Origin: an uncultured Bacteroidales bacterium
GTDB lineage: Bacteria; Bacteroidota; Bacteroidia; Bacteroidales; Muribaculaceae
Assembly (NCBI GenBank): GCA_902774055.1
Contig: CACYGX010000029.1
Span: forward strand, 1-40,057
Length of the DNA stretch: 40,057 nt
Direction: 5' to 3'
The position numbers and the translations under genes were made by a program. Every line of letters begins with the position of its first letter. The first letter of the stretch is position 1. The notes beneath the pieces were generated by a model, which saw only the letters and a program-made list of their open reading frames with translations, searched no databases and had not been told where the DNA came from. This document shows, piece after piece, positions 17,338 to 40,057 of the stretch.

Positions 17338-17363
17338 AGAGTCACATTTTTTAATATTTGGTG

Positions 17364-17371: not shown

Positions 17372-17393
17372 CTAAAAAGCTGCGGTTTTTTTT

Positions 17394-19738: not shown

Positions 19739-19758
19739 GCCTTCGTAGTACTTTGTCT

Positions 19759-21096: not shown

Positions 21097-21110
21097 AACT
21101 ATTTTTTTGA

Positions 21111-21118
21111 CAAAGATA
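21111..21118 (-). promoter_or_regulatory. -7 promoter element for dgt
   Basis: TATCTTTG on the minus strand, 15 bases before the dgt ATG, with a CTTG 20 bases upstream. It implies a very short leader. Confidence 0.55.
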
Positions 21119-21153
21119 CACTTTTCCTGCCAATGATACAAGAAATCCCATCA

Positions 21154-22224: not shown

Positions 22225-22248
22225 TTTCGAGGTCGTGTAGAATCATTG

Positions 22249-22256
22249 CAAAATTA
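22249..22256 (-). promoter_or_regulatory. -7 promoter element for the acyltransferase gene
   Basis: TAATTTTG on the minus strand, 24 bases before the start. A TTTG 24 bases further up is too distant to be convincing. Confidence 0.45.
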
Positions 22257-22319
22257 AGCAAAATATGAGTTAGTCGAGCGCAAAATAAGTTTAATTTTTG
22301 CTTTAGGCGCGTACATTAA

Positions 22320-22351
22320 TTTGCCATTGTATTTGGCTTGCACTATCTTTG
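22320..22351 (+). promoter_or_regulatory. Complete Bacteroidota promoter for dut
   Basis: TTTG at 22320-22323, a 20-base spacer, then TATCTTTG at 22344-22351. It fits the TTTG-N19/20-TAnnTTTG consensus and is the best promoter in the window. The dut ATG is 21 bases downstream. Confidence 0.75.
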
Positions 22352-22372
22352 TGCCTTAAAATACATTGTAGC

Positions 22373-22816
22373 ATGGATAAGATTGACGTGAAAATCGTGA
22401 ACCGTGGACCGCACGAGGTGCCGCAATATGGCACTACACTGAGCGCGGGCATGGACTTGCGCGCATGGCTCGATGAGCCACTGACGCTGCAGCCCCTGCA
22501 GCGGGCACTGGTGCACACTGGCATATATATCGCTCTGCCCGAAGGCTATGAGTGCCAAATAAGACCCCGCAGCGGCATGGCGCTGAAACGTGGATTGACA
22601 GTGCTGAACACACCTGGCACGATTGATGCTGACTATCGCGGCGAGATAGGGGTCATCATGGTGAACCTGAGCAACGAGCCCCAGACCATCGAGAATGGTG
22701 AGCGTATCTGCCAGATGGTTGTAGCACGTCACTCCACCGTCCAGTGGACCCTTGTCGAAGACCTGGATGATACCGAACGCGGGGCTGGCGGTTTTGGACA
22801 CACAGGAACGAGATAG
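22373..22816 (+). CDS. dut: dUTP diphosphatase
   Basis: 147 residues from ATG 22373 ([12 protein letters not shown]); the upstream in-frame ATG at 22349 lies inside the promoter. Trimeric dUTPase motifs: [65 protein letters not shown]. It hydrolyses dUTP to dUMP and PPi, limiting uracil incorporation. Its TAG stop codon forms the first three bases of the following 7-bp repeat array. Confidence 0.97.
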
Positions 22817-22925
22817 TTAATAGTTAATAGTTAATAGTTAATAGTTAATAGTTAATAGTTATTAGTTAATAGTTAATAGTTATTAGTTAATAGTTAATAG
22901 TTAATAGTTAACAGTTTATAGTTAT
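22814..22925. repeat. 7-bp tandem repeat array (TAGTTAA), about 16 units
   Basis: Sixteen consecutive 7-base units from 22814: TAGTTAA, with occasional TAGTTAT variants and degenerate last units (CAGTTTA, TAGTTAT). The array starts at the dut stop codon and ends 13 bases before the ATG of the TPR gene. It fills the whole intergenic space and carries stop codons in all forward frames. Confidence 0.95.
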
Positions 22926-22938
22926 CAGCAGATAATTG

Positions 22939-24669: not shown

Positions 24670-25495
24670 CATTGTGATCTTGATGGTCATTGCCGCCTTG
24701 ATGACTGCCTGTGGCACGGCCAAGAAGGCAACCACGCCCAACACCCCTCAGACAACCGAGCCGACCACACCATCGACAGTGACTACCGACCCCTACAACG
24801 CCATCATTTCGACGCTGGGCCAATGGCAAACAATGCAGACCGGAGGTAACATCAAGTTGAATGCCGGCAGCAGTTTCTCATCATCTGTCCAGGTGCGCAT
24901 GGTGCGTGACAAGGCCATTTTCATCTCATTACGTCCCGTACTGGGTATCGAGGTGGGCAAACTCATCATCACTGCCGACAGCCTCTATGCCGTGGACAAG
25001 GTGCACAAGCGCTACATTGCCGAGAAAGTGTCCATCCTCACATCGGGCATTCCACTCACCGTGAGTGACGTTCAGGACATCTTCCTGGGCAGGCCCTTTA
25101 TCCTCGGGAAAGGCACCATCAACATCGACTCCAAGGCCGATATGACCGTCAACCGTGAGGGCAACTCGGTCATTCTGGCTCCAAACGAGAGCTACAAGGG
25201 ATATAGCTATGCCTTCAGCTTCAACAAGAGCAACCGCATCGCCTCGCTCGACATCATGCCCGCCGGCAGCACCACACCTGCCTATCAAGTCAAGTACAGT
25301 GACGTGCGAACCACGTCTGCCGGCAACATCGCCCACGAGATGAATGCCCAAGCGACTGTCGAGAGCAAGAAGATGTCCCTCACACTCTCCTACAAGGACA
25401 TCGACTGGAACGGCAAAGTGACCATCGACAGCAGCATCTCAGGCAATTACTCACGCATGAGCGCCCGCGACCTCTTCTCCATGTTTGCCAACTGA
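24659..25495 (+). CDS. DUF4292 family lipoprotein
   Basis: 278 residues from ATG 24659 (MKNNIVILMVIAALMTACGT). A lipoprotein signal ends in the MTAC box, then a Thr/Pro-rich linker (NTPQTTEPTTPSTV). The DUF4292 domain has FSSSVQVRMVRDKAIFISLR, PVLGIEVGKLIITADSLYAV and the IFLGRPFILG stretch, with a LolA/LppX-like beta fold expected. It is likely anchored to the outer membrane and involved in envelope biogenesis; the exact role is unknown. Translationally coupled to the TPR gene. A start further upstream inside the TPR gene is unlikely because the lipobox would become internal. Confidence 0.88.
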   Translation: MKNNIVILMVIAALMTACGTAKKATTPNTPQTTEPTTPSTVTTDPYNAIISTLGQWQTMQTGGNIKLNAGSSFSSSVQVRMVRDKAIFISLRPVLGIEVGKLIITADSLYAVDKVHKRYIAEKVSILTSGIPLTVSDVQDIFLGRPFILGKGTINIDSKADMTVNREGNSVILAPNESYKGYSYAFSFNKSNRIASLDIMPAGSTTPAYQVKYSDVRTTSAGNIAHEMNAQATVESKKMSLTLSYKDIDWNGKVTIDSSISGNYSRMSARDLFSMFAN

Positions 25496-25530
25496 TCGAT
25501 TGGCATCGCTCCACTAGTGCCTCATGAGAT

Positions 25531-25580
25531 AACGTCGCAAAAAAGGGTGCTTTTACAATTTCAAAGCCCTTTCTGCGTTA
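25531..25580 (+). terminator. Imperfect stem-loop after the DUF4292 gene
   Basis: CGCAAAAAAGGGTGCTTT and AAAGCCCTTTCTGCG form a long, bulged hairpin (inner stem GCTTT/AAAGC, then GG/CC, outer CGCA/TGCG). No long U-tract follows. It probably separates the dut-TPR-DUF4292 unit from the TonB receptor. Confidence 0.45.
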
Positions 25581-25605
25581 TGTTATTATATATCATAAGA
25601 TTTTA

Positions 25606-27987
25606 ATGAGATTTCACTTCCGCATATTGTCGATTGTAGCGTGCCTGATGTGCGCTACAGTAGCGTTTTCACAAGTCAAAATCACGGGTAAAGTCATTGA
25701 TGCCGCCGGCGAACCCATCGAGTTTGCCACGGTTCGCCTGCTGGGCACTGCCGTGGGTACAAACACCGACACCAAAGGCATGTATGAGATGAATGTCCCT
25801 AAGGCCGACACCCTGATGGTGGAATTTTCCTGTTTGGGTTACTCTACAGTCACGCGCCAACTCATCAAGCCCGAGGGCACGGTGACCATCAACCCCAAGC
25901 TGTATGAGAAAACGCTCGAACTGGGCGAAGTAGAAATTACTGAATACAAGAAGCAGACCACTGGCATGCAGGGCATCGACGTGGAAATGCTCAAGCGCAC
26001 ACCCGACGCTTCAGGCGGTAGCGTTGAGGCCGTGCTAACGACCATGGCGGGCGTCAGCTCGAAGAACGAGCTCAGTTCGCAGTACATGGTGCGCGGCGGC
26101 TCCTATGACGAGAATAGCGTCTATATCAACGGCATCGAGGTCTATCGTCCGCAGCTCATCAGTTCAGGCCAGCAGGAGGGTATGAGTATCATCAACCCTG
26201 ACATGGTGCGCAAGGTTGATTTCTCGACAGGTGGTTTCAGCGCCGCCTATGGTGACCGCATGTCGTCGGTGCTCGACATCACCTACCGCGAGCCTGAGGC
26301 CTTTGAAGGCGCCTTTGCCGCCAGCCTACAGGGCGGCAGCCTGATGCTGGGACACAGCACAAGCCACTACTCACAGATGCACGGTGTGCGTTACAAGCGC
26401 AATTCCTCGCTCATGGGCTCACTGGAGAGCAAGGGCGAATATGACCCCCAATACTTCGACTATCAGGCCAGCCTGGTGTTCAAGCCCATGGACAAGCTGC
26501 GCATCGCCCTGCTGGGCAACGTCAGCATCAACGATTACCGCTTCACGCCCAAGAACCGCGAGACCAGTTTCGGTACTAGCCAGGACGTGAAGTCGTTCAC
26601 CGTCTATTTTGACGGCTACGAGAAGGACAAGTTCCAGACCTACTTTGGCGCTGGCGCCGTGACCTACATGTTCAACAAGAAGGGCACCGACCTCACACTG
26701 CAAGCCTCGGGTTACCGTACCGACGAGTTGGTCGCCTACGACATCCACGGCGAGTATTGGCTGGACCAAGCCGGCCAGGAGCTGGGCGTGGGCAAGTATC
26801 ACGAGCACGAGCGCACCCGCTTGAAAATGAACGTGATGGACTTCACCCTGCGCGGTAATGTCGGCATCAATCAGAACAGCATCTCCTATGGCATCTCTAT
26901 GCGCCAGGAGAAGATCTACGACCGTTCCCGTCAATGGCAATGGCGCGACAGTGCGGGCTACTCCCTTCCCCACATCCCCGATCAGGTCAACGTCATCTTT
27001 ACCGAGTCGTCCAGCAACGACCTGAACACCACCCGCTTTGCCGGTTGGCTCATGGACACCTGGCGATTTACTACGGGCGCTGGCTACTGGTCACTGAATG
27101 CGGGCGTGAGGTTGTCACATTGGAACTTCAATGGCGAGACCCTGGTTTCGCCGCGCGTCAGCTTGGGCTTTGTCCCCGAGCGCAACGGCAACCTGTCACT
27201 GCGACTGTCTGGCGGCGTTTACTATCAGGCACCCTTCTACAAGGAATACCGGCAGCAGGTCATGGACTCGCTCAACAATCGCAATATCCTGCTGAACAAG
27301 AATATCAAGTCACAACGCAGCATTCAGGTCATTTTGGGCAGCGACTACACCTTCCGCGCCCTAGATCGTCCCTTTAAATTTACGGCCGAAGCTTATTACA
27401 AGAATCTGTCGAACCTCATCCCCTATGAGATCGATAACCTCAAGCTCGTTTATAGCGGCGTTAATTCTTCAAAGGGCTACATTGCCGGCCTGGACATGAA
27501 ATTGTTTGGCCAGTTTGTCGAGGGTACCGACTCTTGGATCAGTTTCTCGCTGATGAAGACCCAGGAAGACCTGAACGGTGTTAAGGTCCCCCGCCCCACC
27601 GACCAGCGTTACAGCATCGCCATGTTCTTCACTGACTACTTCCCCAACATCCCACGCCTCAAGTTCAGCCTCAAGGGCATCATCAGCGATGGTCTACCCA
27701 CCACAGCACCTCACTTGACACGCGCCGACTCCTACGTGCGCCAGCCCGCCTACAAGCGCGTGGACGTGGGACTGAGCTATGAACTCATCGGCAAGGAGCA
27801 TCGTCCCCACAGCGGTTTCTTCAGCCACTTCAAGGAAGTATGGCTTGGCCTGGACTGCTTCAACCTCATGGATATCTCCAACGTGAGCAGCTACTACTGG
27901 GTCACCGACGTCAACAACATCCAGTACGCCGTCCCCAACTACCTCACCCGCCGCCAGCTCAACGTCCGCCTCTCCGCCTCGTTCTAA
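25606..27987 (+). CDS. TonB-dependent outer-membrane receptor with carboxypeptidase-like N-domain
   Basis: 793 residues. Signal peptide to ~22 (CLMCATVAFSQ). Residues ~24-105 are a CarboxypepD_reg-like domain (VKITGKVIDAAGEPIEFATV, TNTDTKGMYEMNVP). The plug domain (~115-240) contains QYMVRGGSYDENSVYINGIE and FSTGGFSAAYGDRMSSVLDI. The remainder is a beta-barrel ending in RQLNVRLSASF with the terminal aromatic residue expected for outer-membrane insertion. No SusD partner is next to it and it is short for a SusC. It therefore more likely imports a small ligand such as a metal complex or cofactor; the substrate is unknown. Confidence 0.93.
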   Translation: MRFHFRILSIVACLMCATVAFSQVKITGKVIDAAGEPIEFATVRLLGTAVGTNTDTKGMYEMNVPKADTLMVEFSCLGYSTVTRQLIKPEGTVTINPKLYEKTLELGEVEITEYKKQTTGMQGIDVEMLKRTPDASGGSVEAVLTTMAGVSSKNELSSQYMVRGGSYDENSVYINGIEVYRPQLISSGQQEGMSIINPDMVRKVDFSTGGFSAAYGDRMSSVLDITYREPEAFEGAFAASLQGGSLMLGHSTSHYSQMHGVRYKRNSSLMGSLESKGEYDPQYFDYQASLVFKPMDKLRIALLGNVSINDYRFTPKNRETSFGTSQDVKSFTVYFDGYEKDKFQTYFGAGAVTYMFNKKGTDLTLQASGYRTDELVAYDIHGEYWLDQAGQELGVGKYHEHERTRLKMNVMDFTLRGNVGINQNSISYGISMRQEKIYDRSRQWQWRDSAGYSLPHIPDQVNVIFTESSSNDLNTTRFAGWLMDTWRFTTGAGYWSLNAGVRLSHWNFNGETLVSPRVSLGFVPERNGNLSLRLSGGVYYQAPFYKEYRQQVMDSLNNRNILLNKNIKSQRSIQVILGSDYTFRALDRPFKFTAEAYYKNLSNLIPYEIDNLKLVYSGVNSSKGYIAGLDMKLFGQFVEGTDSWISFSLMKTQEDLNGVKVPRPTDQRYSIAMFFTDYFPNIPRLKFSLKGIISDGLPTTAPHLTRADSYVRQPAYKRVDVGLSYELIGKEHRPHSGFFSHFKEVWLGLDCFNLMDISNVSSYYWVTDVNNIQYAVPNYLTRRQLNVRLSASF

Positions 27988-28010
27988 CCATTATTGGACA
28001 AACTATGTTA

Positions 28011-28025
28011 CGAGCCAAAGGCTCG
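28011..28025 (+). terminator. Small hairpin after the TonB receptor gene
   Basis: CGAGCC-AAA-GGCTCG is a perfect 6-bp stem 24 bases past the stop, but no U-tract follows. GGCTCGCAA also occurs in the palindromic elements A and B, so this may be a fragment of the same repeat family. Confidence 0.4.
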
Positions 28026-28064
28026 CAATACAAAACAACTCCCTCATTACATTCATCTACCACG

Positions 28065-28289
28065 ATGAAAAGCAAAATGAGCCTTTTGGGTCTTGTTTTG
28101 CTAATTCATTGTGTTTCAGCAGCTGTTGTTGCTGTGGCTATGCTTCAGGGGTGGAGCGGGAATGTTAACGTAGTATTAAAAGCACGATTAGCTTGCCACG
28201 CAGCTAAGGTACAATGTACAGCAATACATGTCAACGATAAAAAGCAGAGTAATGGCCAAAAGTCGCCATTAGCGACGGGAAATGGGTAG
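28065..28289 (+). CDS. Possible small membrane or exported protein
   Basis: 74 codons from ATG 28065. The first ~30 residues are hydrophobic (KSKMSLLGLVLLIHCVSAA, VVAVAMLQGW), like a signal anchor, followed by a basic tail with two Cys. I do not recognise it. The region beyond 28289 is repeat-derived. It could equally be chance in a gene-poor stretch, as no promoter is seen. Confidence 0.25.
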   Translation: MKSKMSLLGLVLLIHCVSAAVVAVAMLQGWSGNVNVVLKARLACHAAKVQCTAIHVNDKKQSNGQKSPLATGNG

Positions 28290-28336
28290 CCAGTGGGCGG
28301 AGAGAAACCGAAGTCCTTCGAGCACCAGCCACGCTC

Positions 28337-28369
28337 CCCAAAAATTACATCAAAAGAACCGTCCCTATT
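28337..28369 (+). repeat. GGGACGGTTCTTTTG-type repeat, copy 1 (with inverted partner 28402-28418)
   Basis: The core ACATCAAAAGAACCGTCCC (continuing TATT) spans 28347-28369 and is preceded by CCCCAAAAATT. ATCAAAAGAACCGTCCC (28349-28365) pairs perfectly with GGGACGGTTCTTTTGAT (28402-28418) across a 36-base loop, forming a 17-bp stem. Such GGGACGGTTCT repeats are widespread and in several phyla associate with REP-type or IS200-like elements. None is encoded here. Confidence 0.85.
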
Positions 28370-28401
28370 ATACCCTCTTGATTGCACGGGTGCTATCAGC
28401 T

Positions 28402-28418
28402 GGGACGGTTCTTTTGAT
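28402..28418 (-). repeat. GGGACGGTTCTTTTG-type repeat, inverted copy
   Basis: Perfect 17-base reverse complement of 28349-28365, making a strong hairpin in either transcript. Confidence 0.85.
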
Positions 28419-28487
28419 TGGCCAAAGCGAAGCGACGCCATCACAAAGACCCGTCCCAATGATGCACCACCCTCGCAGCCACCACTT

Positions 28488-28524
28488 CCCCAAAAAATTA
28501 CATCAAAAGAACCGTCCCTATTTT
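28488..28524 (+). repeat. GGGACGGTTCTTTTG-type repeat, copy 2
   Basis: CCCCAAAAAATT followed by the same 23-base core (28500-28522). The preceding ~20 bases (CAGCCACCACTTCCCC) also resemble those before copy 1 (CAGCCACGCTCCCC), so the duplicated unit is longer than the core. Confidence 0.85.
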
Positions 28525-28528
28525 CCAT

Positions 28529-28560
28529 TAAAAATACATCAAAAGAACCGTCCCTATTTT
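28529..28560 (+). repeat. GGGACGGTTCTTTTG-type repeat, copy 3
   Basis: The same 23-base core at 28536-28558, exactly 36 bases after copy 2, followed by the same TATTTT. The remaining 27988-28671 sequence has no other gene I can support. Confidence 0.85.
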
Positions 28561-28610
28561 CGCGGGATGAAAAAAAAGAAACTGGGAAGCGGGAAATAAA
28601 AAGTTTTTAT

Positions 28611-28618
28611 TAACTTTG
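28611..28618 (+). promoter_or_regulatory. -7 promoter element for the ROK kinase gene
   Basis: TAACTTTG on the plus strand, 53 bases before the ATG. No clear -33 TTTG. Confidence 0.5.
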
Positions 28619-28671
28619 CCCTTTGAGAAATAATCGATTTATTATCAACCTATAAAAATTGAACCAAAATC

Positions 28672-29634
28672 ATGGCAAAACCTTATGTAATCGGTATCGA
28701 CATGGGCGGAACGAATACCGTGTTCGGTATTGTGGACGCTCGCGGCAATGTGATTGCCAGCAGCTCAATCAAGACTGCTAAACACAGTGATTTCAATGAC
28801 TATATCGACGAGTTGCACACCGAGCTGACACGCTTGATGAAAGACAATGAAGTTGAGGACAAGATCAACGGCATCGGCATCGGCGCTCCTAATGGTAACT
28901 ACTACACTGGCTTGATCGACCAGGCTCCCAACCTGCCGTGGCCTACGCCTATCCCTCTTGCCGAGATGGTGACGAAGAAATTTGGCATTCCTTGTGTGAT
29001 CACGAATGATGCTAACGCTGCTGCCATCGGCGAGATGACCTATGGTGTGGCTCGTGGCATGAAGGATTTCATCATGATCACGCTGGGCACTGGTGTGGGC
29101 AGCGGTATCGTGGTTAATGGCCAGATGGTATATGGCCATGATGGCTTTGCTGGTGAGCTGGGTCACGTGATTGTGAAGCGCACCAATGGTCGTGTGTGCG
29201 GTTGTGGCCGCACGGGTTGTCTGGAGGCTTACTGCTCGGCAACGGGTGTTGCCCGCACGGCTAGGGAGTTCCTGGAGCTGCGTGATGAGCCTTCGAAGCT
29301 GCGCGAGTATGATATTGCTGCGATCACGAGCAAGGATGTGTATGACTGCGCTGTTGCTGGTGACAAGCTGGCGAAGGATATCTTTGAGTACACGGGCACG
29401 ATCCTGGGCGAGGCTCTGGCCGATTTCACCAACTTCTCGAGCCCTGAGGCCTTTGTGCTGTTTGGCGGCTTGACGAAGAGTGGAGACTTGATCATGAATC
29501 CTGTTAAGGAGGCGTTTGAGCGCAATGTGCTGGGCATCTACAAGGGCAAGGTGAAGATCCTCATCAGCGAGCTCAAGGAGAGTGATGCTGCTGTGCTGGG
29601 TGCGAGTGCTCTGGGTTGGGAAGTTAAGGAGTAA
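28672..29634 (+). CDS. ROK family glucokinase
   Basis: 320 residues. ATP-binding motif IGIDMGGTNTVFGIV, the catalytic Asp in ITNDANAAAIGEMTYG, LGTGVGSGIVVNG, the GHDGFAGELGHVIV glucose-binding segment with the conserved E and H, and the ROK zinc site CGCGRTGCLEAYCS. It phosphorylates glucose (or a related hexose) with ATP at the entry to glycolysis. There is no N-terminal HTH, so it is an enzyme, not a ROK repressor. Codon use shifts towards GT-ending codons relative to its neighbours, consistent with high expression. The next gene starts 18 bases downstream. Confidence 0.94.
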   Translation: MAKPYVIGIDMGGTNTVFGIVDARGNVIASSSIKTAKHSDFNDYIDELHTELTRLMKDNEVEDKINGIGIGAPNGNYYTGLIDQAPNLPWPTPIPLAEMVTKKFGIPCVITNDANAAAIGEMTYGVARGMKDFIMITLGTGVGSGIVVNGQMVYGHDGFAGELGHVIVKRTNGRVCGCGRTGCLEAYCSATGVARTAREFLELRDEPSKLREYDIAAITSKDVYDCAVAGDKLAKDIFEYTGTILGEALADFTNFSSPEAFVLFGGLTKSGDLIMNPVKEAFERNVLGIYKGKVKILISELKESDAAVLGASALGWEVKE

Positions 29635-29652
29635 TATCCCTGGGCTGGCGAG

Positions 29653-29973
29653 ATGAGAAAGGGTTTCTTTCCACTGATTGTGGCTGTGATTGCGCTGTTG
29701 TGCCTGGCCTCTTGCAACAAGGTGCCCAGGCATTACCAGATGGTGCAGAACATGTCGGACGGCAAGCAGATTGTTGACACATTTGATGCTGAGAATGACA
29801 CGGTTGCCTTGAACATGTATCTGGACCGCATGTCGAATATCATTATTCAGAACATGAATAAGAATGACAGCACGGCTGCCAAGATTGAGTCGATGTATGT
29901 TCTCTCGCCTGAAGGCGACACGCTGAACACCAATCCTGAGCTGATGGATGCCATCGAGCGACAGCTCAATTAA
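29653..29973 (+). CDS. Small lipoprotein of unknown function
   Basis: 106 residues. A lipoprotein signal with lipobox LASC (RKGFFPLIVAVIALLCLASC). The mature part has no recognised domain: a helical-looking YQMVQNMSDGKQIVDTFD, then LNMYLDRMSNIIIQNMNKND and a short strand-rich end (YVLSPEGDTLN). Probably co-transcribed with the glucokinase. A strong terminator follows. Confidence 0.75.
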   Translation: MRKGFFPLIVAVIALLCLASCNKVPRHYQMVQNMSDGKQIVDTFDAENDTVALNMYLDRMSNIIIQNMNKNDSTAAKIESMYVLSPEGDTLNTNPELMDAIERQLN

Positions 29974-30001
29974 GGCATCTCTTCAAGACATAACACAAAA
30001 T

Positions 30002-30043
30002 GCTAAACACCCCGCGACACTTGATGTGTGCGGGGTGTTTAGC
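30002..30043. terminator. Bidirectional terminator between the lipoprotein gene and rplQ
   Basis: GCTAAACACCCCGC (30002-30015) pairs perfectly with GCGGGGTGTTTAGC (30030-30043); the loop can pair further (ACAC/GTGT). This GC-rich 14-bp stem lies between convergent transcripts, 28 bases past one stop and about 80 past the other. Confidence 0.85.
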
Positions 30044-30124
30044 GTTATTGTGTAAAGTCGGTCTGTGTTGAGAGCGGCCTTATCGCGACAAGACCGCTGT
30101 GCTACTATGCGACTTTGTGTACAA

Positions 30125-30619
30125 TTATTCTTCGGTCTTGGGAGCTTCCTCGGCGGGAGCGGCAGGAGCCTCGGCTGCGGGAGCGGCGGCTTTCTTGCGG
30201 CTGCGGCGAGTAGTCTTCTTGGGAGCGGCCTTCTCCTGGTTCTTAGCCTCGAGCAGTGCCTCATTGAAGTCAACGAGCTCAATGAAGCAGGTCTTGGCGT
30301 TGTCACCCAGGCGGTTGCCGAGTTTCAAGATGCGGGTGTAGCCACCGGGGCGGTCACCGATCTTGGCAGCAACGGTCGAGTAGAGTTCCTTAACGGCCTC
30401 CTTGTTCTGGAGGTGTTTGAAGACAAGGCGACGCGAAGCGGTGGTGTCGTCCTTAGCCCTGTTGATCAGGGGCTCGGCATAGACACGCAGGGCCTTAGCC
30501 TTAGCGAGGGTCGTGACGATGCGCTTGTGCATGATGAGGGAGATGGTCATGTTGGCCAACATGGCATCACGGTGGGCGCTCTTACGGCTCAGATGGTTGA
30601 ATTTCTTATTATGTCTCAT
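30125..30619 (-). CDS. rplQ: 50S ribosomal protein L17
   Basis: 164 residues. The L17 core is intact ([20 protein letters not shown], the [13 protein letters not shown] segment, [33 protein letters not shown]). After ~125 a lysine/alanine/proline-rich tail ([20 protein letters not shown]) extends it about 40 residues beyond the E. coli length. Such tails are usual in Bacteroidota L17. It is the last gene of the operon. Confidence 0.97.
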
Positions 30620-30625
30620 CGTTTT

Positions 30626-31618
30626 TTACTCTTTTTCTAATTTGTATTTAGTGATATCCATGCCAAAGTGCAGATTGAGGTTGGCCAACAGCTCCTCAAG
30701 CTCGCTGAGCGACTTCTTGCCGAAGTTGCGGAACTTGAGCAGGTCGGTCTTGTTGAAGACCACGAGTTCTCCAAGCGTCTCGACCTCTGCCGACTTGAGG
30801 CAGTTGAGGGCACGCACTGAGAGGTCCATGTCAACAAGTTTGGTCTTGAGCAGCTGACGCATCTTGAGTACTTCCTCGTCAAACTCCTCGTTGCCATTGC
30901 TCTCGTTATTGTCGATAACGATTTCACGGTCGGTGAAGAGCTGGAAGTGCTGTATAAGAATCTCGGCAGCGCCCTTGAGAGCGTCCTTAGGATGGATGGA
31001 GCCATCGGTGGTGATTTCGATGATGAGCTTCTCGTAGTCGGTCTTCTGCTCGACACGGAAGTTCTCGACTGTTGTCTTCACGTTCAGGATGGGCGTGTAG
31101 ATGGAGTCGATGGCAATCACGTCGATGGGGTCATTGGCGTTGCGGTTTTCCTCGGCAGGAACATATCCCCTACCCTTGTTGATTGAGAATTCAATCTGGA
31201 AGCCGCAAGAGGGGTCGATGTGGCAAATCTCGAGCTCGGGGTTCAGTACCTCGAATGCGCTCAGGACCTTGCCGATGTCGCCCGCCTTGAAGACGCTCTG
31301 ACCTGAAACCTTGACAACGGCCTTCTCGGTGTCGGTGTCTTCGACAATGCGTTTGAGGCGCACCTTCTTGAGGTTGAGGATGATGTTGGTGACATCTTCC
31401 TTGACACCCGTGATGGTTGCGAACTCATGCTGCACGCCGTCGATGCGGATGCTGCAGATTGCGAAGCCTTCGAGTCCGGACAGGAGGATGCGGCGCAGTG
31501 CGTTACCGATGGTGACACCGTAACCGGGCTCCAGTGGGCGGAACTCAAATCTGCCGAACGAGTTGTCGGCTTCCAACATTAAGACTTTGTCGGGTTTCTG
31601 AAATGCTAAAATAGCCAT
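30626..31618 (-). CDS. rpoA: RNA polymerase alpha subunit
   Basis: 330 residues. The N-terminal dimerisation domain ([40 protein letters not shown]) and the C-terminal domain ([36 protein letters not shown]) are both complete. It lies 6 bases upstream of rplQ, in alpha-operon order. Confidence 0.98.
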
Positions 31619-31629
31619 GGATAAAAATT

Positions 31630-32238
31630 TTACTGTTTAGAATACAACTCGACGATCAACTGCTCCTTGATATTCTCGGGGATGTCCTCACGAACGGGCA
31701 TGTGCAAGAGCTTGCCGCCCTTGACGGTCTCGTCCCATTCAATCCAGGGATACTTGCTGTGGTTGAAGCCGGCGAGAGCGTCTTGGATGACCTCAAGCGA
31801 CTTGGACTTCTCGCGTACAGCAACGATTTGACCCTCGCTCACCGAGTAGGAAGGGATGTTGACAACCTTGCCGTCAACGGTGATGTGGCGGTGCAGCACG
31901 AGCTGGCGTGCGGCGGCGCGGGTGGGAGCGATACCCAAACGATAAACCATGTTGTCGAGCCTAGCCTCGAGCAACTGGAGGAGCACTTCACCAGTAACGC
32001 CCTTCATGCGTGAAGCCTTGTTGAAGAGGTTACGGAACTGGCGCTCAAGCACACCGTAGGTGTACTTTGCTTTCTGTTTTTCGCGAAGCTGGGTGCCGTA
32101 CTCAGACATTTTTCTGCGACGATTTGCACCATGCTGGCCCGGGGGATAGTTCTTCTTGGCAAAGTACTTGTCCTCGCCGAAGATGGGTTCACCCAGTTTA
32201 CGGGCAATTTTTGATTTTGGACCGGTGTATCTAGCCAT
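31630..32238 (-). CDS. rpsD: 30S ribosomal protein S4
   Basis: 202 residues. [28 protein letters not shown], then the S4 RNA-binding domain ([40 protein letters not shown]). Primary 16S-binding protein. It is preceded by an unusually long 173-base spacer after rpsK. Confidence 0.98.
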
Positions 32239-32411
32239 AGTCTTTAATAAATAATAAACATTGTGAATTGGAATCGCTTCAGTGCAGCCGCGATTGCAGA
32301 GAGGTCGTTAAAAATGCAATCCATTCACTGATAGAGATTCGCGAAAAAGTTTGTTAATAAAAAAATCTGTTAAAACAGTGTTGTGTTGTTGAAAACAAGC
32401 GCCTAACTCTC
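32239..32411 (-). other. Structured spacer between rpsK and rpsD (possible r-protein leader)
   Basis: 173 bases without an ORF in an operon whose other spacers are mostly under 90. In transcript order it has a weak CTGT/ACAG hairpin followed by ATTTTTTTATT (an attenuator-like site, plus-strand 32355-32378). It then has GATTGCA pairing with TGCAATC (32315-32321 with 32292-32298). S4 autoregulates its operon in E. coli; that this spacer does so here is inference. Confidence 0.4.
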
Positions 32412-32801
32412 TTAGACCCTTCTTCTCTTGGGGGGACGGCAACCGTTGTGGGGCAGCGGTGTGACGTCGATGATCTCGGTAACTGCGATGCCGGCACCAT
32501 GGATAGTGCGGATAGCGGACTCACGTCCATTACCCGGACCCTTCACATAGGCCTTGACCTTGCGCAAACCGAGGTCGTAAGCGACCTTTGCGCAATCTTC
32601 GGCAGCCATCTGGGCAGCGTAGGGTGTGTTCTTCTTAGAACCACGGAAACCCATCTTGCCAGCCGAGGACCACGAAATTACCTGTCCCTCGCCGTTAGCG
32701 AGGCACACAATGATGTTGTTAAATGAAGAATGTACGTGGAGCTGACCAATACCGTCAACACGAACGACTCTCTTCTTAGCTGCGACTGTCTTTTTAGCCA
32801 T
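32412..32801 (-). CDS. rpsK: 30S ribosomal protein S11
   Basis: 129 residues, full length. [58 protein letters not shown], and the conserved C-terminus [13 protein letters not shown]. Confidence 0.98.
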
Positions 32802-32816
32802 AGTTGTTCGATAATG

Positions 32817-33182
32817 TTATTTAGTAGCTTTCTTCTTGTTAGCAACAGTTTTCTTGCGGCCCTTGCGGGTGCGGGCATTGTTCTTGGTGCTCTGACCGCG
32901 AACAGGGAGACCGTTGCGGTGACGGATGCCACGATAGCAACCGATGTCCATCAATCGCTTGATGTTCATCTGCACCTCGCTGCGCAGGTCACCTTCTACC
33001 TTGTATTCGTTACCGATCACCTCACGCACTGCGGCTGCCTCGGCATCGGTCCAATCCTTCACGCGGGTGTTCTCGTCGACACCAGCCTTCTTGAGGATTG
33101 TAGCGGCTGAGCTGCGCCCGATACCAAAGATGTAGGTCAAGGCGATGACGCCGCGCTTGTTTTGGGGAATATCAACCCCGAC
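32817..33182 (-). CDS. rpsM: 30S ribosomal protein S13, 5' end lost at a junction with rpmJ
   Basis: 121 residues align with S13 from [20 protein letters not shown] to the basic tail [20 protein letters not shown]. The usual length is about 126, and the missing part is just the expected MAIRI. No ATG or GTG precedes it in frame: going upstream the frame reads IPSF, then AAA codons, ACA, TTA and a TGA stop inside rpmJ. The first possible start is an internal TTG at 33140 (in IALTYIF), which would remove the N-terminal region. Everything downstream is normal, so loss of about 14 coding bases plus the spacer at this point is the simplest reading. S13 is essential in most bacteria, so a sequence or assembly error must be considered. 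Confidence 0.9.
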
Positions 33183-33282
33183 AAAACTTGGGATTTTTTT
33201 TGTTAATCACATAAAGGCGCCCTTTGCGACGGACGATCTTGCAGTCCTCGTTGCGCTTCTTGATAGATGCTCTAACTTTCAT
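33172..33282 (-). CDS. rpmJ: 50S ribosomal protein L36 with altered C-terminus
   Basis: 36 residues: [20 protein letters not shown], then [13 protein letters not shown], as in Bacteroidota L36, but ending CRG-stop instead of the usual KQRQG. The last codons (TGT CGG GGT TGA) are S13 sequence read in another frame, so the C-terminus comes from the same junction that beheads rpsM. An A8 run (T8 at 33194-33201 on the plus strand) lies inside the gene, 10 codons before the stop; loss of one A would fuse L36 to S13 in frame. Confidence 0.88.
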
Positions 33283-33299
33283 AATGTATTGTGATTTAG

Positions 33300-33518
33300 T
33301 TATTTGTATCGAAATGAGATTCTTCCTTTAGACAAATCGTAGGGGGACATTTCCACTCTCACCTTGTCACCGGGCAAAATTTTGATGTAGTGCATTCTCA
33401 TCTTGCCGCTGATGTGTGCGGTGATCTGGTGTCCGTTCTCGAGTTCCACGCGGAACATCGCGTTGGACAGGGCCTCGACGATTGTGCCGTCTAATTCTAT
33501 TGCTGTCTGTTTTGCCAT
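33300..33518 (-). CDS. infA: Translation initiation factor IF-1
   Basis: 72 residues, full length, single S1-like OB fold: [20 protein letters not shown], then [20 protein letters not shown] and [20 protein letters not shown]. Lies between map and rpmJ as is usual. Confidence 0.97.
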
Positions 33519-33578
33519 ATAAAACCTTAATTAACGATTACCGGTTATTTTCTTGTTTAAAAGCTGTGAATTCTTCAA

Positions 33579-34364
33579 TCAGATGAACCTGTCACCCAGG
33601 ACCTCCTTGATACCGTCAAAGGAGGAGAGGATGTCGGGCTTGCCATGGTGGATGGCGATGGAGTGCTCAAAGTGTGCACTGGGCTTGCGGTCGCGGGTGC
33701 GAGTCGTCCAGCCGTCGCGCTCGGTGATGATGTTCTTGCTTCCCATGTTGATCATGGGCTCGATAGCAATGGTCATGCCGTTGCGCAACAGTGGACCGGT
33801 GCCGCGCCTACCATAGTTAGGCACCTCGGGGTCCTCGTGCAGCTTGCGCCCCACTCCGTGTCCGGTCATCTCGCGCACGACACCGTAGTTGTGTCGCTCG
33901 CAGTACTGCTGGATGGCATGGGCGATGTCGCCGATGCGGTTACCGGGCACGGCGTGCTCGATGCCGACATACAGCGACTCCTTGGTCACGCGCAGGAGCT
34001 GCTTGGTTTCTTCGGCCACTTCACCGACACAGAAGGTGTAGGTGCTGTCGCCGTTGAACCCCTCGGGGGTGACGGCACCGCAGTCACAGGACACGATGTC
34101 GCCATCCTCGAGAACGTAGTTCGACGGGATGCCGTGCACTACGACCTCGTTGACCGAGGTGCAGAGCGTGGCGGGAAAGCCGTACAACCCCTTGAAGCCG
34201 GGGGTGCAGCCTTGAGAACGGATATACTCCTCAGCGATTTGGTCGAGTCGCCTGGTGGTGACTCCTGGGGCGACCCACTTGGCCACCTCGGCGAGTGTGC
34301 CGGCTACGACCTGATTGGCCTTGCGCAGCATCTCGATTTCCTCGTCTGTCTTGAGATATATCAT
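33579..34364 (-). CDS. map: Methionine aminopeptidase, type I
   Basis: 261 residues. The five metal ligands are visible: Asp in IVSCDCGA, Asp in FNGDSTYTF, His in MTGHGVGRKLHE, Glu in TIAIEPMI and Glu in AHFEHSIA. It removes the initiator Met from nascent proteins. Located between secY and infA, as in many bacterial spc operons. Confidence 0.97.
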   Translation of the reverse strand: MIYLKTDEEIEMLRKANQVVAGTLAEVAKWVAPGVTTRRLDQIAEEYIRSQGCTPGFKGLYGFPATLCTSVNEVVVHGIPSNYVLEDGDIVSCDCGAVTPEGFNGDSTYTFCVGEVAEETKQLLRVTKESLYVGIEHAVPGNRIGDIAHAIQQYCERHNYGVVREMTGHGVGRKLHEDPEVPNYGRRGTGPLLRNGMTIAIEPMINMGSKNIITERDGWTTRTRDRKPSAHFEHSIAIHHGKPDILSSFDGIKEVLGDRFI

Positions 34365-34403
34365 GGTGTGATTGAATAGCTTTTAAATGCCGGTAAACGT
34401 CAT

Positions 34404-35741
34404 TTAACGGGAACGGCCCTTGATTTTACCAGACTTCATCAGACCATCGTAGTGGTGCATCATCAAGTGGGTCTCAATCTGCTGGAGTGTGTCAAGAACG
34501 ACACCCACGGTAATCAGCAGTGAAGTTCCACCGAAGAACTGGGCGAACTGCTGGTTGACGCCAAAGTAGCGGGCAAATGCGGGCAGGATGGCGACGATAC
34601 CCAGGAAGATCGAACCCGGAAGGGTGATGCGTGACATGATCGAGTCGAGATAGTCGGCGGTCTTCTTGCCGGGCTTGATGCCGGGGATGAAGCCGCTGTT
34701 CTTCTTCATCTCTTCGGCCATCTGGGTGGGACGCACGGTGATGGCGGTGTAGAAGTAGGTGAAGGCGACGATCATGATGAAATATACCACATTGTACCAG
34801 AAACCGTTCATGTCACCGAAGGTGCGCGAGAGCGAACCGAGGAAACCGGAGTCGTTCTGGCGAGCGCCAAAACCGGCAAGGGTGATGGGGATGAACATCA
34901 AGGCCTGGGCAAAGATGATAGGCATCACGTTAGCAGCATTGACCTTCAGAGGGATGTACTGGCGGGCGCCACCATACTGCTTGTTGCCGACGATGCGCTT
35001 GGCATACTGCACGGGGACCTTGCGGGTGCCCTGGGTGAGCATGACGGCGCCAGCGGTAACGGCGAAGAGGATGACGATCTCGACCAGGAACATCACCAGA
35101 CCACCTTGAGCGGTGTTCAGGCGGCTGGTAAACTCTTGAACGATGGCACCAGGGAAACGGGCGAGGATACCCACCAAGATGATGATGGAAATACCGTTGC
35201 CGATACCCTTGTCGGTGATCTTCTCACCGAGCCACATAATCAACATCGCACCAGCGGTGAGCACGATAGACAGATAGATCATCGTCATACCCGAGATGTG
35301 GGCATGGCCACCGGCTGCGTTGACCTGATACTGGAGGTTCATCAGGTAGGCGGGAGCCTGGACCAGAAGGATGGCTACAGTCAGGTAACGGGTGTACTGA
35401 TTGAGCTTCATGCGTCCACTCTCACCCTCGCGCTGCATCTTCTGGAAGCTGGGTACTACCATACCCATCAATTGGATAACGATCGACGCGGTGATATAGG
35501 GCATGATACCCAATGCGAAGATTGAGGCCTGGCCGAAGGCACCGCCCGAGAACATGTCGAGCAGCTGCATCAGACCGCCACTGGTAAAGTTGCGCATGGC
35601 TTCCAAGTCGCTGGGGTTGATTCCCGGCAGCACCACATGACAGCCAAAGCGATAGATCACAATGAACAGGAATGTGGTGATGAGGCGCTTGCGCAAGTCC
35701 TCAATCTTCCAGATGTTTTTTAATGTTTCAATGAGTTTCAT
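34404..35741 (-). CDS. secY: Preprotein translocase subunit SecY
   Basis: 445 residues and about ten membrane helices. LRKRLITTFLFIVIYRFGCH at the N-terminus, YITASIVIQLMGMVVP, the plug region SGGAFGQASIFALGIMPYIT, and QTRKVPVQYAKR-type cytoplasmic loop (GTRKVPVQYAKRIVG). Length is normal. It forms the protein-conducting channel with SecE and SecG. Confidence 0.98.
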   Translation of the reverse strand: MKLIETLKNIWKIEDLRKRLITTFLFIVIYRFGCHVVLPGINPSDLEAMRNFTSGGLMQLLDMFSGGAFGQASIFALGIMPYITASIVIQLMGMVVPSFQKMQREGESGRMKLNQYTRYLTVAILLVQAPAYLMNLQYQVNAAGGHAHISGMTMIYLSIVLTAGAMLIMWLGEKITDKGIGNGISIIILVGILARFPGAIVQEFTSRLNTAQGGLVMFLVEIVILFAVTAGAVMLTQGTRKVPVQYAKRIVGNKQYGGARQYIPLKVNAANVMPIIFAQALMFIPITLAGFGARQNDSGFLGSLSRTFGDMNGFWYNVVYFIMIVAFTYFYTAITVRPTQMAEEMKKNSGFIPGIKPGKKTADYLDSIMSRITLPGSIFLGIVAILPAFARYFGVNQQFAQFFGGTSLLITVGVVLDTLQQIETHLMMHHYDGLMKSGKIKGRSR

Positions 35742-35748
35742 CGTTGGG

Positions 35749-36195
35749 TTAGAGTTTTACGATTGAGCCACCGGCAGCGGTGATGATTTCCTCTGCCTTC
35801 TTGGAGAATGCGTGGGCTTCAACCTCGATCTTGTGGTTGAGTTGACCCTGGCCCAAAATTTTAACAAGTTGGTTCTTACGTACCAGACCAGCCTGGATGA
35901 GGTTGGCAACGGTAATTTTGTCGAGACTATTCTGCTCGGCGAGTGCCTCAAGCACAGCAACGTTGATGGCCTTGTACTCCACGCGGTTGATGTTCTTGAA
36001 ACCACCCTTGGGGACACGGCGCTGGAGGGGCATCTGGCCGCCTTCGAAGCCGACCTTCTGCTTGTAACCAGAGCGGGACTTGGCGCCCTTGTGACCACGG
36101 GTAGATGTACCGCCCTTGCCCGAACCGGGACCGCGGCCGATACGACTTTTCTTCTTATTTGAACCTACAGCAGGTTTTAAATCATGTAATTCCAT
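35749..36195 (-). CDS. rplO: 50S ribosomal protein L15
   Basis: 148 residues. RIGRGPGSGKGGTSTRGHKG near the N-terminus, GFEGGQMPLQRRVPKGGF, and the C-terminal VEAHAFSKKAEEIITAAGG. Full length. Confidence 0.98.
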   Translation of the reverse strand: MELHDLKPAVGSNKKKSRIGRGPGSGKGGTSTRGHKGAKSRSGYKQKVGFEGGQMPLQRRVPKGGFKNINRVEYKAINVAVLEALAEQNSLDKITVANLIQAGLVRKNQLVKILGQGQLNHKIEVEAHAFSKKAEEIITAAGGSIVKL

Positions 36196-36226
36196 AATGT
36201 TGTTTCTTGTTTTGAGATTTTAAGAA

Positions 36227-36409
36227 TTAATCAACATTGGTGACTTCCACCAGATGACGAACAGCGTTGACCATACCGAGCACCTGAGGTGTAGCCTCGA
36301 GGGTAACGGTGTGGTTGAGTTTCCTCAGGCCCAGGGCGTCGAGGGTTCTCTTTTGGCGAGCCGGACGATTGATGCGGCTTTTCACTTGTTTAATCTGTAT
36401 CTTAGCCAT
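36227..36409 (-). CDS. rpmD: 50S ribosomal protein L30
   Basis: 60 residues: IKQVKSRINRPARQKRTLDA, LGLRKLNHTV and MVNAVRHLVEV. Normal size. Confidence 0.97.
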   Translation of the reverse strand: MAKIQIKQVKSRINRPARQKRTLDALGLRKLNHTVTLEATPQVLGMVNAVRHLVEVTNVD

Positions 36410-36426
36410 AACTAGTAAACAAATTT

Positions 36427-36945
36427 TTAACCGTTAAACACCTTGTCCACAGTAACGCCGCGATAGTGAGCCACGGTAGCCGGGCTGCGCATCTCGTCGA
36501 GGGCCTTGAGCGTGGCCTTCACCAGGTTGTGAGGGTTGCTTGATCCCTTGGACTTACAAATAACATCGGTAACACCCACCGTCTCGAAGACGGCACGCAT
36601 AGCACCACCAGCCTTAACGCCGGTACCGGCGCTGGCGGGCTTCATGATAATGCGGCTGCCGCCGTACTTGGCAACTACCTCGTGGGGGATTGTGCCCTTG
36701 TGGACGGGGACCTTGATCAGGTTCTTCTTGGCCACCTCGGTACCCTTAGAGATTGCCGTGGTAACCTCATTGGCCTTACCCAAGCCGTAGCCGATAATGC
36801 CATTGCCGTCACCGACAACGACGATAGCGGCGAAGGTAAACGTGCGACCACCCTTGGTAACCTTGGTGGTGCGGTTGATAGCGACCAGACGCTCCTTGAG
36901 TTCGGCGTCGGCTGCGATCTTTACTCTATTATTTTTCTTAATCAT
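36427..36945 (-). CDS. rpsE: 30S ribosomal protein S5
   Basis: 172 residues. [37 protein letters not shown], and [20 protein letters not shown], with the [16 protein letters not shown] motif. Full length; N-terminal [13 protein letters not shown] is slightly unlike the common MAxxNNRVK. Confidence 0.98.
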
Positions 36946-36953
36946 GATGATTC

Positions 36954-37295
36954 TTAAAATTTAAGTCCGCCTTTGCGTGCGCCGTCGGCCAACGATTTAA
37001 CTCTACCATGGAACAGGAAGCCGTTGCGGTCGAACACGACCGTGCTGATGCCGGCCTCGAGGGCCTTCTTGGCGATGGCTTCACCCACCTTAGCGGCGAT
37101 CTCGCTCTTGTTGCCCTCGGTGATTCCCTTAGAGGAAGCGGAGCAGAGGGTATTGCCAGCTACGTCGTCGATGACCTGGGCATAAATTTGCTTGTTGCTG
37201 CGGAAGACACACAGCCTGGGGCGCTCGGCAGTGCCGCTGATGCGACCGCGGATGCGGGCCTTGATCTTGTTTCTTCTATCTGATTTGGATATCAT
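36954..37295 (-). CDS. rplR: 50S ribosomal protein L18
   Basis: 113 residues. [38 protein letters not shown], and [20 protein letters not shown]. Full length; binds 5S rRNA. Confidence 0.98.
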
Positions 37296-37315
37296 ATCGT
37301 TTCCTTTCTACTTAA

Positions 37316-37870
37316 TTATTTGGCAGCTGCCGTTTTACCAGACTTACGACGAATAACTTCGCCAACGAACTTAACACCTTTACCCTTGTAAGGCTCGGGC
37401 TTGCGGAAGGAGCGGATCTTGGCACAGATTTGTCCCAGGAGCTGCTTGTCGCACGATTCGAGGGTGATGAGCGGGTTCTTGTTGCGCTCACTCTTGGCTT
37501 CGACCTTGACCTCGGGCGGCATCTTCAAGTAGATAGCGTGTGAGTAACCGAGGGCCAGCTCCAGGACTTGTCCGTTGCTGGTGGCACGGTAACCGACGCC
37601 GACAATTTCGAGTTCTTTCTTGAAACCCTCGCTCACGCCAACAACCATGTTGTTGATCAGTGCGCGGTAGAGACCGTGCTGAGCGCGTGACTCACGCTCG
37701 TCGTTGGGGCGGGTCACCTTGATTTCATTATCTTCGATCTCAACGGTGATGTTGGGGTTGAGGGTCTGCTTGAGCTCGCCCTTGGGGCCCTTCACGGTGA
37801 GAACGTTATCTTTTTGTTCAACAGTTACGCCAGCGGGGATGGCGATGTGCAATTTACCTATTCTTGACAT
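37316..37870 (-). CDS. rplF: 50S ribosomal protein L6
   Basis: 184 residues from ATG 37870 (MSRIGKLHIAIPAGVTV). The longer in-frame extension overlaps rpsH and is spurious. NVLTVKGPKGELKQTLNPNI, KKELEIVGVGYRA, LESCDKQLLGQICAKIRSF and RKPEPYKGKGVKFVGEVIRR are all in place. Confidence 0.98.
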   Translation of the reverse strand: MSRIGKLHIAIPAGVTVEQKDNVLTVKGPKGELKQTLNPNITVEIEDNEIKVTRPNDERESRAQHGLYRALINNMVVGVSEGFKKELEIVGVGYRATSNGQVLELALGYSHAIYLKMPPEVKVEAKSERNKNPLITLESCDKQLLGQICAKIRSFRKPEPYKGKGVKFVGEVIRRKSGKTAAAK

Positions 37871-37887
37871 AGCGCTTCTCCTCTTGA

Positions 37888-38289
37888 TTAATAAACGTAA
37901 CACAATACTTCGCCACCGATCTTCTGGTTCTTGGCTTCCTTGTTGGTCATGACGCCCTTGGAAGTGGAGATGATGGCAATACCTAAACCATTGAGCACGC
38001 GGGGCATGTCCTTGTAGCCAGTGTACTGGCGCAGGCCGGGCCTTGAGACGCGTGTGAGGCACTTGATGGCGCTGACGTTGTCGACGTTGTCATACTTGAG
38101 CGCGATCTTGATGGTGCCACGGGGAGAATCCTCGCTCTCGACGAACTTGTAGTTCAGGATGTAACCCTGGTCGAAGAGAATCTTGGTGATCTCCTTTTTG
38201 AGCTTCGAAGAAGGGATTTCAACGACACGGTGCTGTGCCTTGATCGCATTCCTCAATCTAGTCAGATAATCTGCAATAGGATCTGTCAT
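37888..38289 (-). CDS. rpsH: 30S ribosomal protein S8
   Basis: 133 residues. MTDPIADYLTRLRNAIKAQH, KLKKEITKILFDQGYI, and the C-terminal GIAIISTSKGVMTNKEA, GGEVLCYVY. Full length. Confidence 0.98.
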   Translation of the reverse strand: MTDPIADYLTRLRNAIKAQHRVVEIPSSKLKKEITKILFDQGYILNYKFVESEDSPRGTIKIALKYDNVDNVSAIKCLTRVSRPGLRQYTGYKDMPRVLNGLGIAIISTSKGVMTNKEAKNQKIGGEVLCYVY

Positions 38290-38376
38290 TATTGTAACTT
38301 GTTTTAAATTGATTCGACGTTGTCGAACAATATTTAATACTTAATGTTGTTGTGTTGTAAAAAAAGTGTTTGAAAA

Positions 38377-38646
38377 TCACCAGCTGGCCTTGTGGACGCC
38401 GGGAATCAGACCGTTAGAAGCCATCTCGCGGAAGTTGATGCGGGAGATGCCGAACTGACGCATGTAGCCCTTGGGGCGGCCTGACATCTTGCAGATGTTG
38501 TGCAGGCGCACGGGAGATGCGTTGCGGGGCAGCTTCTGCAGTGCCTCATAGTCACCGTCCTTCTTGAGCTGGGCACGCTTGGCGGCGTACTTGGCGACGA
38601 GGCGCTCACGCTTGGCCTGGCGGGCTTTCATTGATTCTTTTGCCAT
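38377..38646 (-). CDS. rpsN: 30S ribosomal protein S14 (zinc-free type)
   Basis: 89 residues. [59 protein letters not shown] and C-terminal GVHKASW. It lacks the CxxC pairs of zinc S14. Confidence 0.97.
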
Positions 38647-38660
38647 AATTTAACTTTCAA

Positions 38661-39203
38661 TTATTTGTTGTTAAACGGGATTCCGAATTCCTTGAGCAGG
38701 GCGTAGCCTTCCTCGTCGGTCTTGGCGGTGGTGACGAAGGTGATGTTCATACCGGTCATCTTGGTCACGTTGTCGATGTTGATCTCGGGGAAGATGATCT
38801 GCTCGGTAACGCCGACGGTGTAGTTGCCGCGGCCGTCGAGCTTGCCGTTAACACCCTTGAAGTCGCGGATACGCGGCAGGGCGATGCGGATGAAGCGCTC
38901 CATGAACTCGTACATGCGGTCACGACGCAGGGTCACGCGGACGCCGATGGGCATTTTCTTACGCACCTTGAAGTTGGAGATATCCTTCTTCGACAGTGTC
39001 TGTACGGCCTTCTGGCCGGTGATTGCTGTGAGCTCGTTGATGGCGGTCTCAATGATCTTCTTGTCCTGGGTTGCGTCACCCAGACCCTCGTTGAGGACGA
39101 TCTTGACCAGACGCGGAATCTGCATCGGCGTGCTGTAGTTGAACTGCTTCATCAAAGCGGGAGCAATCTTCTCGTCATATTGTTTCTTCAGCGTGGTACT
39201 CAT
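38661..39203 (-). CDS. rplE: 50S ribosomal protein L5
   Basis: 180 residues. PRLVKIVLNEGLGDATQDKK, TGQKAVQTLSKKDISNFKVR, KKMPIGVRVTLRRDRMYEFM, and NYTVGVTEQIIFPEINID. Start ATG 39203 overlaps the rplX stop by one base. Confidence 0.98.
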   Translation of the reverse strand: MSTTLKKQYDEKIAPALMKQFNYSTPMQIPRLVKIVLNEGLGDATQDKKIIETAINELTAITGQKAVQTLSKKDISNFKVRKKMPIGVRVTLRRDRMYEFMERFIRIALPRIRDFKGVNGKLDGRGNYTVGVTEQIIFPEINIDNVTKMTGMNITFVTTAKTDEEGYALLKEFGIPFNNK

Positions 39204-39532
39204 TATTTAATCTCCTCTCCAGTTTTTTTAGAATAACGAACAGTTTTGCCATTCTCATCCTTCCTGAAGCCTACGCGTGTGGGCTTGGGGTCGCGGCCGC
39301 TCTTGGGGTCAACGACTGCGAGGTTGCTCAGGTGGATGGGGGCTTCCATCTTGACAATGCCGCCCTGGGGGGCCTTGGCATTGGGCTTCGTGCTCTTGGA
39401 CACGATGTTGACACCCTCGACGATTGCCTTGCCCTTGTCAGGCAGGATGTTCAGCACGCGACCGGTCTTACCCTTGTCGTCACCAGCGAGAACATAGACG
39501 GTGTCACCCTTCTTGATTTTTAACTTAGCCAT
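39203..39532 (-). CDS. rplX: 50S ribosomal protein L24
   Basis: 109 residues. [20 protein letters not shown] (KOW motif), RAIVEG-equivalent [19 protein letters not shown], and [12 protein letters not shown] at the end. Full length. Confidence 0.98.
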
Positions 39533-39561
39533 ATATTGATTATTGCTATTTTAATGATTGA

Positions 39562-39861
39562 TTAAAGAACCTCGGGAGCGAGGGAAACGATCTTCATGTT
39601 GGTGGCGCGCAGCTCGCGGGCTACGGGGCCGAAGATGCGCGTTCCGCGCAGCTCGCTCTCCTTGCTGGTGCGAACCACGACAGCCTTTGAAACAGTACCC
39701 TTCTTCACCTCTGAAGCGGGGATAGCCTTCTTGACGGTGACTACGATGATGTCACCCACCGAAGCGTAACGACGACCGGAACCGCCGAGCACCTTGATGC
39801 ACAGAACTTCCTTTGCGCCGCTGTTGTCGGCAACTGTCAATCTACTTTCAGTCTGTATCAT
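39562..39861 (-). CDS. rplN: 50S ribosomal protein L14 with an internal in-frame deletion
   Basis: 99 residues instead of the usual ~121. [40 protein letters not shown] and [16 protein letters not shown] are normal, and so is [20 protein letters not shown] to the end. The segment that normally sits between them (the RRxDGSxIRFDxNAxVLxN stretch, about 22 residues) is absent. The join is at codons ~67-70 (39652-39663) and is in frame. L14 contacts 23S rRNA and L19 at the subunit interface, and this strand pair is among its most conserved parts. Either the sequence is missing 66 bases or this is a truly shortened L14. Confidence 0.93.
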
Positions 39862-39870
39862 AATAAATAA

Positions 39871-40057
39871 TTACTTCGCTTTTTCGATGATTTCAACTAA
39901 TCTCCACCTCTTGGTCTTGCTCAACGGGCGGGTCTCCATCAGGCGAACGGTGTCGCCGACGTTGCACTCGTTGTTCTCGTCATGAGCGTGGTACTTCTTT
40001 GTCTTGTTGACAAACTTGCCATAGATTGGGTGTTTCTCCTTCCACTTGATGGTCACA
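39871..40057 (-). CDS. rpsQ: 30S ribosomal protein S17 (partial, N-terminus off the window)
   Basis: The visible C-terminal ~61 residues read [20 protein letters not shown], then [20 protein letters not shown] and [20 protein letters not shown], the S17 OB fold. The frame is open at the window end. It lies 9 bases upstream of rplN. Confidence 0.96.

Follow-up and report, generated by a model that had tools for sequence, protein, structure and literature searches.

An rpmJ–rpsM junction in a Bacteroidales draft genome that is very likely a local assembly error

The apparent junction between the genes of the ribosomal proteins L36 (rpmJ) and S13 (rpsM) in the draft genome of an uncultured Bacteroidales bacterium is, as far as sequence comparison can tell, very likely a local error of a short-read assembly of metagenome type; this verdict is a strong inference and not a proof. 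The fusion, the missing start codon and the foreign tail are almost certainly consequences of this error, with no real fusion, frameshift or unusual start behind them, and in the real organism rpmJ is very probably intact and followed by a spacer and an S13 gene that starts with ATG. An assembly or consensus error had been the first hypothesis of the preliminary description of this DNA, and the comparison with related genomes supports it. The window, that is the whole stretch of DNA analysed, is the complete contig C29 (40,057 bp) of the draft assembly G000, which consists of 54 contigs with 3.17 Mb and an estimated completeness of 94.29%. Its relevant features are as follows.

1..40057: the window, the whole contig G000:C29 (40057 bp)
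1..99, no strand: start of contig C29, k-mer overlap with contig C6 of a de Bruijn assembly, from identity to the C6 start (reverse complement)
32817..33182, minus strand: rpsM (S13), lacking a start codon and codons 1–5 (MAVRI)
33172..33201, minus strand: junction of the rpmJ and rpsM remnants, with 72 bp of the closest relative G067 absent, from comparison with relatives
33184..33282, minus strand: rpmJ (L36) remnant, residues 1–33 of 38, its reading frame extending to 33172 as CRG-stop
39562..39861, minus strand: rplN (L14), shortened by a private in-frame loss of 66 bp with its junction near 39656/39657
39871..40056, minus strand: rpsQ (S17), cut by the contig end, from its translation and the contig end at 40057

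The L36 reading frame starts at 33282 and occupies 33172–33282 of the minus strand. As had been described, it is family-like up to NPKF and then continues as CRG-stop, and it matches positions 1–33 of the 38 of the Pfam L36 profile (PF00444) above the cut-off, which is not a full-length match. The S13 frame opens on the same strand at the sixth residue of the protein, and the Pfam S13 profile (PF00416) is matched over positions 3–128 of 128 at 32868–33182 (minus strand), free of stops. No start codon was found upstream of this domain, the earliest ATG, GTG or TTG in the S13 frame being an internal TTG at 33140. The earlier claim that S13 lacks its start holds for the first five codons and the start codon, although the genus reads MAVRI at this place and not MAIRI, as had been supposed. 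The contig sequence at the junction is clean and contains no N. A TT microhomology that had been proposed for the breakpoint is not borne out; the product retains the TT pairs of both flanks (TTTT), a repeat-mediated deletion would leave only one of them, and the script scored 0 bp.

The arrangement was sought in 101 genomes of the genus; direct reading of the junction covered the 30 best-matching loci, with a recount by script. In this comparison with close relatives, which the preliminary description had proposed as a check, 27 of the 30 loci have the KQRQG-stop, the spacer and ATG-MAVRI, with the L36 end followed by a short A-rich spacer and then by the S13 start. The remaining three are the window (L002), G053, which has a different deletion (L003), and G065, where the locus is ended by a contig end (L009). 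In G053 the L36 end is gone and MAVRI is retained, the piece lost being different from that of the window, while G052, counted among the 27 with an intact junction, has lost 24 bp near the L36 start. G067, which at 92.8% has the highest operon identity to the window, is 72 bp longer than the window here by direct comparison. Against the intact rpmJ–spacer–rpsM arrangement of the genus, the gene order and the flanks of the window are the same, and its sequence is shorter by these 72 bp, which span the rpmJ end and the rpsM start. The comparison thus bears out the proposed loss of the L36 end, the spacer and the S13 start, which is private to one assembly.

The L36 profile was matched above the cut-off in 82 of the 101 genus genomes, with all 38 positions covered in 79 of these; the three matches that are not full-length are those of G000 (1–33), G053 (1–32) and G052 (11–38), which represent three different lesions. 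A shortened L36 was also sought in 397 genomes of the family, with few low scorers outside the genus, such as G365 and G374, among the matches listed. Relaxed selection on L36 was considered since three genomes have a damaged L36, and was rejected because other genes are also damaged (rpsH, rplF, map, rpoA, rpsK and others).

Other observations concern the same stretch in the relatives. One locus (L206, G022:C124:2697-2810) has a full-length L36 match with one internal TAG. The rpmJ–rpsM stretch had no match in 18 of the 101 genus genomes, some of them 90–94% complete (for example G047, G059, G070 and G079), which suggests that the operon is frequently missing from bins. The rpmJ–rpsM spacer of the relatives (L004, L005, L010 and others) has 37–40 bp and carries TA-NN-TTTG, often as TATTAACTTTGCA; the motif occurs in all 38 genomes in which the spacer was found by pattern (83 were tried), and the spacer is missing from the window. 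This motif resembles the Bacteroidetes -7 promoter element, and the spacer may hold an internal promoter for rpsM and the genes after it.

The junction is not the only lesion in G000, and the others are unrelated to it and lie in regions common to several species. Within the window, about 6.5 kb from the rpmJ–rpsM junction, rplN has a 66-bp deletion that is private to G000 among 32 clade genomes. On contig C39 of the same assembly, rpsG has lost 43 bp and rplB 13 bp, both with a frameshift, and both genes are intact in the two relatives compared (G095 and G067). From what is established about these proteins, a living cell with L2, S7, L14 and S13 all broken together is not credible. For fusA, the damaged copy is that of G067 (L268, G067:C16), which has two in-frame gaps of 51 and 42 bp relative to G095 and G000; these are lesions of the same kind as those of G000, in a close relative.

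The ribosomal operon from 83 genus genomes was aligned in two sets according to identity to the window, a clade of 32 genomes with at least 89% (the window included) and a second set of 51 genomes with at most 82%. The clade species are 89–93% identical to the window over the operon. The clade alignment (280 kb) contains 31 private deletions of 10 bp or more, spread over 17 of the 32 genomes, 7 of the 31 being past rplQ at the alignment end. The second set has 27 such deletions, 12 of which are in G035, a genome with a poorly aligning flank; G035 and G065 were omitted from the deletion listing.

In a comparison of the proteins from 19 genes, 19 of the 479 clade copies were broken and 4 had internal gaps of 8 aa or more, plus one N gap. 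The breakpoints in this table are common to no two genomes. The known lesions of rpmJ and rpsM in G000 and of rpmJ in G053 are below the protein thresholds and stand outside these 23, and rplQ was omitted from the comparison because its tail is variable. The damaged genes of the clade include rpsQ, rplN, rplX, rpsH, rplF, rplR, rpsE, rplO, map, rpmJ, rpsM, rpsK, rpsD and rpoA. In the 51 genomes of the second set, 18 of 826 copies were flagged, plus two N gaps. These 18 comprise 4 full-length matches with internal stops, 13 length variants of secY or rpsN, which were taken together and not row by row as probable natural variation, and one private deletion (rpsH of G063), the only flagged copy judged comparable to the clade lesions. 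A Fisher test was run on this hand classification (23 of 478 vs. 1 of 826), and its p-value is not relied on.

The 23 junctions listed have sizes of 13–154 bp, two of which are understated because the contig of the chosen neighbour ends at the site: 17 bp is listed for the window junction (72 bp vs. G067) and 24 bp for rpsK of G075 (89 bp by alignment). The microhomology is 0, 1 and 2 bp in 14, 6 and 3 of these junctions, respectively, and the deletion length modulo 3 is 0, 1 and 2 in 6, 7 and 10 of them, so the sizes ignore the reading frame. N runs are present in 4 of the 83 operon loci, and that of G075 is inside rpsH.

As a control, the less conserved genes beside the operon (window 16–28 kb) were compared in 13 genomes including G000, giving 89 sequences of eight genes and 125 kb, of which 8 sequences are from G000; the acyltransferase is represented by the G000 copy alone and GH92 by 10 copies. 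With the same 13 genomes and the same method, the operon (about 144 kb) yielded 14 private deletions of 10 bp or longer and the control (125 kb) 0. A binomial test had been made on the count of 12 vs. 0 that preceded this like-for-like count, and its p-value is not relied on. The cruder protein criterion flags 34 of the 89 control copies: an end is missing in 21, the match is split in 2, stops occur in 5, and 6 have gaps of at least 8 aa. The first two kinds lie no further inward than the first Met of annotations that are over-long; because this Met is at residue 29, 16 or 9, they were taken for over-long start annotation, as were the stops, by their kind and without individual placement. Five of the gaps are in DUF4292 (58–70% identity) and one is in a TonB-dependent protein, and these were taken for ordinary variation of divergent proteins. 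The gene rpoB, which is full length in 14 of the 15 genomes with a match, with one gap (G052), and has no match in 3 of 18, is intermediate between the operon and the control in its lesions. Real deletions would show the opposite order, because selection purges them from translation genes and spares dispensable ones.

The damage tracks the k-mers that are common to several species. Of the 99-mers of G000, 5.0% of those in the operon and 0.03% of those in the neighbouring region were found in the same 12 genomes, and for the rpoB locus 0.7% occur in 14 partner genomes. The mean sharing of 31-mers among the 83 loci is 52% in the clade and 21% in the other set. The start of C29 is identical to the start of C6, as its reverse complement, over exactly 99 bp, and this exact overlap is a mark, if an indirect one, of short-read de Bruijn assembly with k near 99. 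For the other end of C29, inside rpsQ, no overlapping partner was found in the G000 genome. At rpmJ, the overlap between two contigs of G039 is exactly 141 bp. For G023, an overlap of 77 bp had been taken from coordinates and was discarded, as the check gave 0.

The course of the proposed error can be outlined on the assumption that congeners co-occurred in the source sample. At the ribosomal operon, the k-mers common to the related species would have tangled the assembly graph; a step of graph simplification or of local assembly may then have joined both sides, with about 72 bp dropped. Some points count against the reading as an assembly error. A new junction in a de Bruijn graph normally requires a read or a local-assembly step, the lesion excess in one clade could stem from one study or pipeline, and the cruder protein criterion flags many control copies too.

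Errors of a related kind have been described for other data. According to passages of Chen et al. 2020 (PMC7111523), metagenome-assembled genomes contain local assembly errors without read support, which give incomplete or incorrect protein-coding genes, and these authors suspect that such errors are prominent in IDBA-UD assemblies. The passages agree with the present case in that the errors lie within assembled sequence and produce faulty genes; however, the errors described there were recognised by missing read support, whereas the evidence here is comparative, and the concentration of lesions in operons conserved between species was measured here and does not come from those passages. In passages of a review (PMC7299287), related species are described as linking assembly graphs via shared k-mers, which can yield chimeric contigs. 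The likeness consists in related species linking the graph, whereas the product here is a small deletion, with no demonstrated chimera of species.

Among the alternatives to an assembly error, a real 72-bp deletion in this lineage is very improbable. It would leave L36 truncated and S13 translated from a start that is unusual or internal, unless the two were tolerated as partial losses. The contig does read cleanly across the junction, L36 is damaged in two other genomes too, and the loss of rpmJ is reported to be tolerated in E. coli (PMC10038286); however, S13 has no ATG, GTG or TTG ahead of its internal TTG, G000 would also have to survive a damaged L14, S7 and L2, and the lesions of the other genomes all differ and strike essential genes, with none in the neighbouring genes that were compared. 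Extended to the clade, the same idea would require that living populations of these uncultured Bacteroidales-like bacteria often carry private deletions of 13–154 bp with nearly blunt ends in genes essential for translation, and tolerate or repair them by an unknown route, which is extremely improbable. An artefact of another type (scaffolding, gap closing, polishing or a chimera of two related species) has an equally slim chance; the N runs in the 4 loci would be in line with it, as would the right flank, which G071 and G065 match without a difference over 124 bp, but the junction itself is without N and the exact 99-bp overlap suggests plain contigs and not scaffolds. Equally, it is extremely improbable that L36 and S13 are made as a fusion protein, whether transcription slips at the upstream run of eight A (A8) that the preliminary description had pointed out or a +1 slip occurs, which TTT-T at the junction would permit. 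A one-base shift does join the two frames, but nothing else favours this reading. In relatives with an intact locus the A8 run is plain coding sequence of rpmJ, and most of those listed have it, so that it is no peculiarity of G000; the arrangement expected of a programmed frameshift or slippage fusion gene is absent from all 29 other loci read; and the lesions of rplN, rpsG and rplB in G000 are not accounted for by any slip site.

Other features were observed at a distance from the operon. The minus strand of window 574–5552 contains three tandem paralogous genes with dockerin-like ends, presumably CotH-like. The first two are 85% identical and both are without an 86-bp stretch found in the third; the second is frame-broken at this site (ORFs 2728–3855 and 2184–2702), and the first is without a further 25 bp. 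A damaged gene may really have been duplicated here, or this may be another assembly lesion, between near-identical copies. A 48-bp repeat in three copies, ending in ACATCAAAAGAACCGTCCCTATT, is found at 28322–28558, ahead of a ROK-kinase-like gene.

The rpmJ–rpsM junction is of no importance as biology and is useful as a caution. Contig C29 is unfit as a basis for any claim on S13 translation in this organism, and where ribosomal genes seem lost or fused in genomes of this kind, the claim has to be backed by reads or a second assembly. When a genus comprises many close species, conserved operons can carry the majority of the assembly lesions and the completeness estimate can still be high, as in G000, and in short-read assemblies like this one the most conserved genes can be those most often broken.
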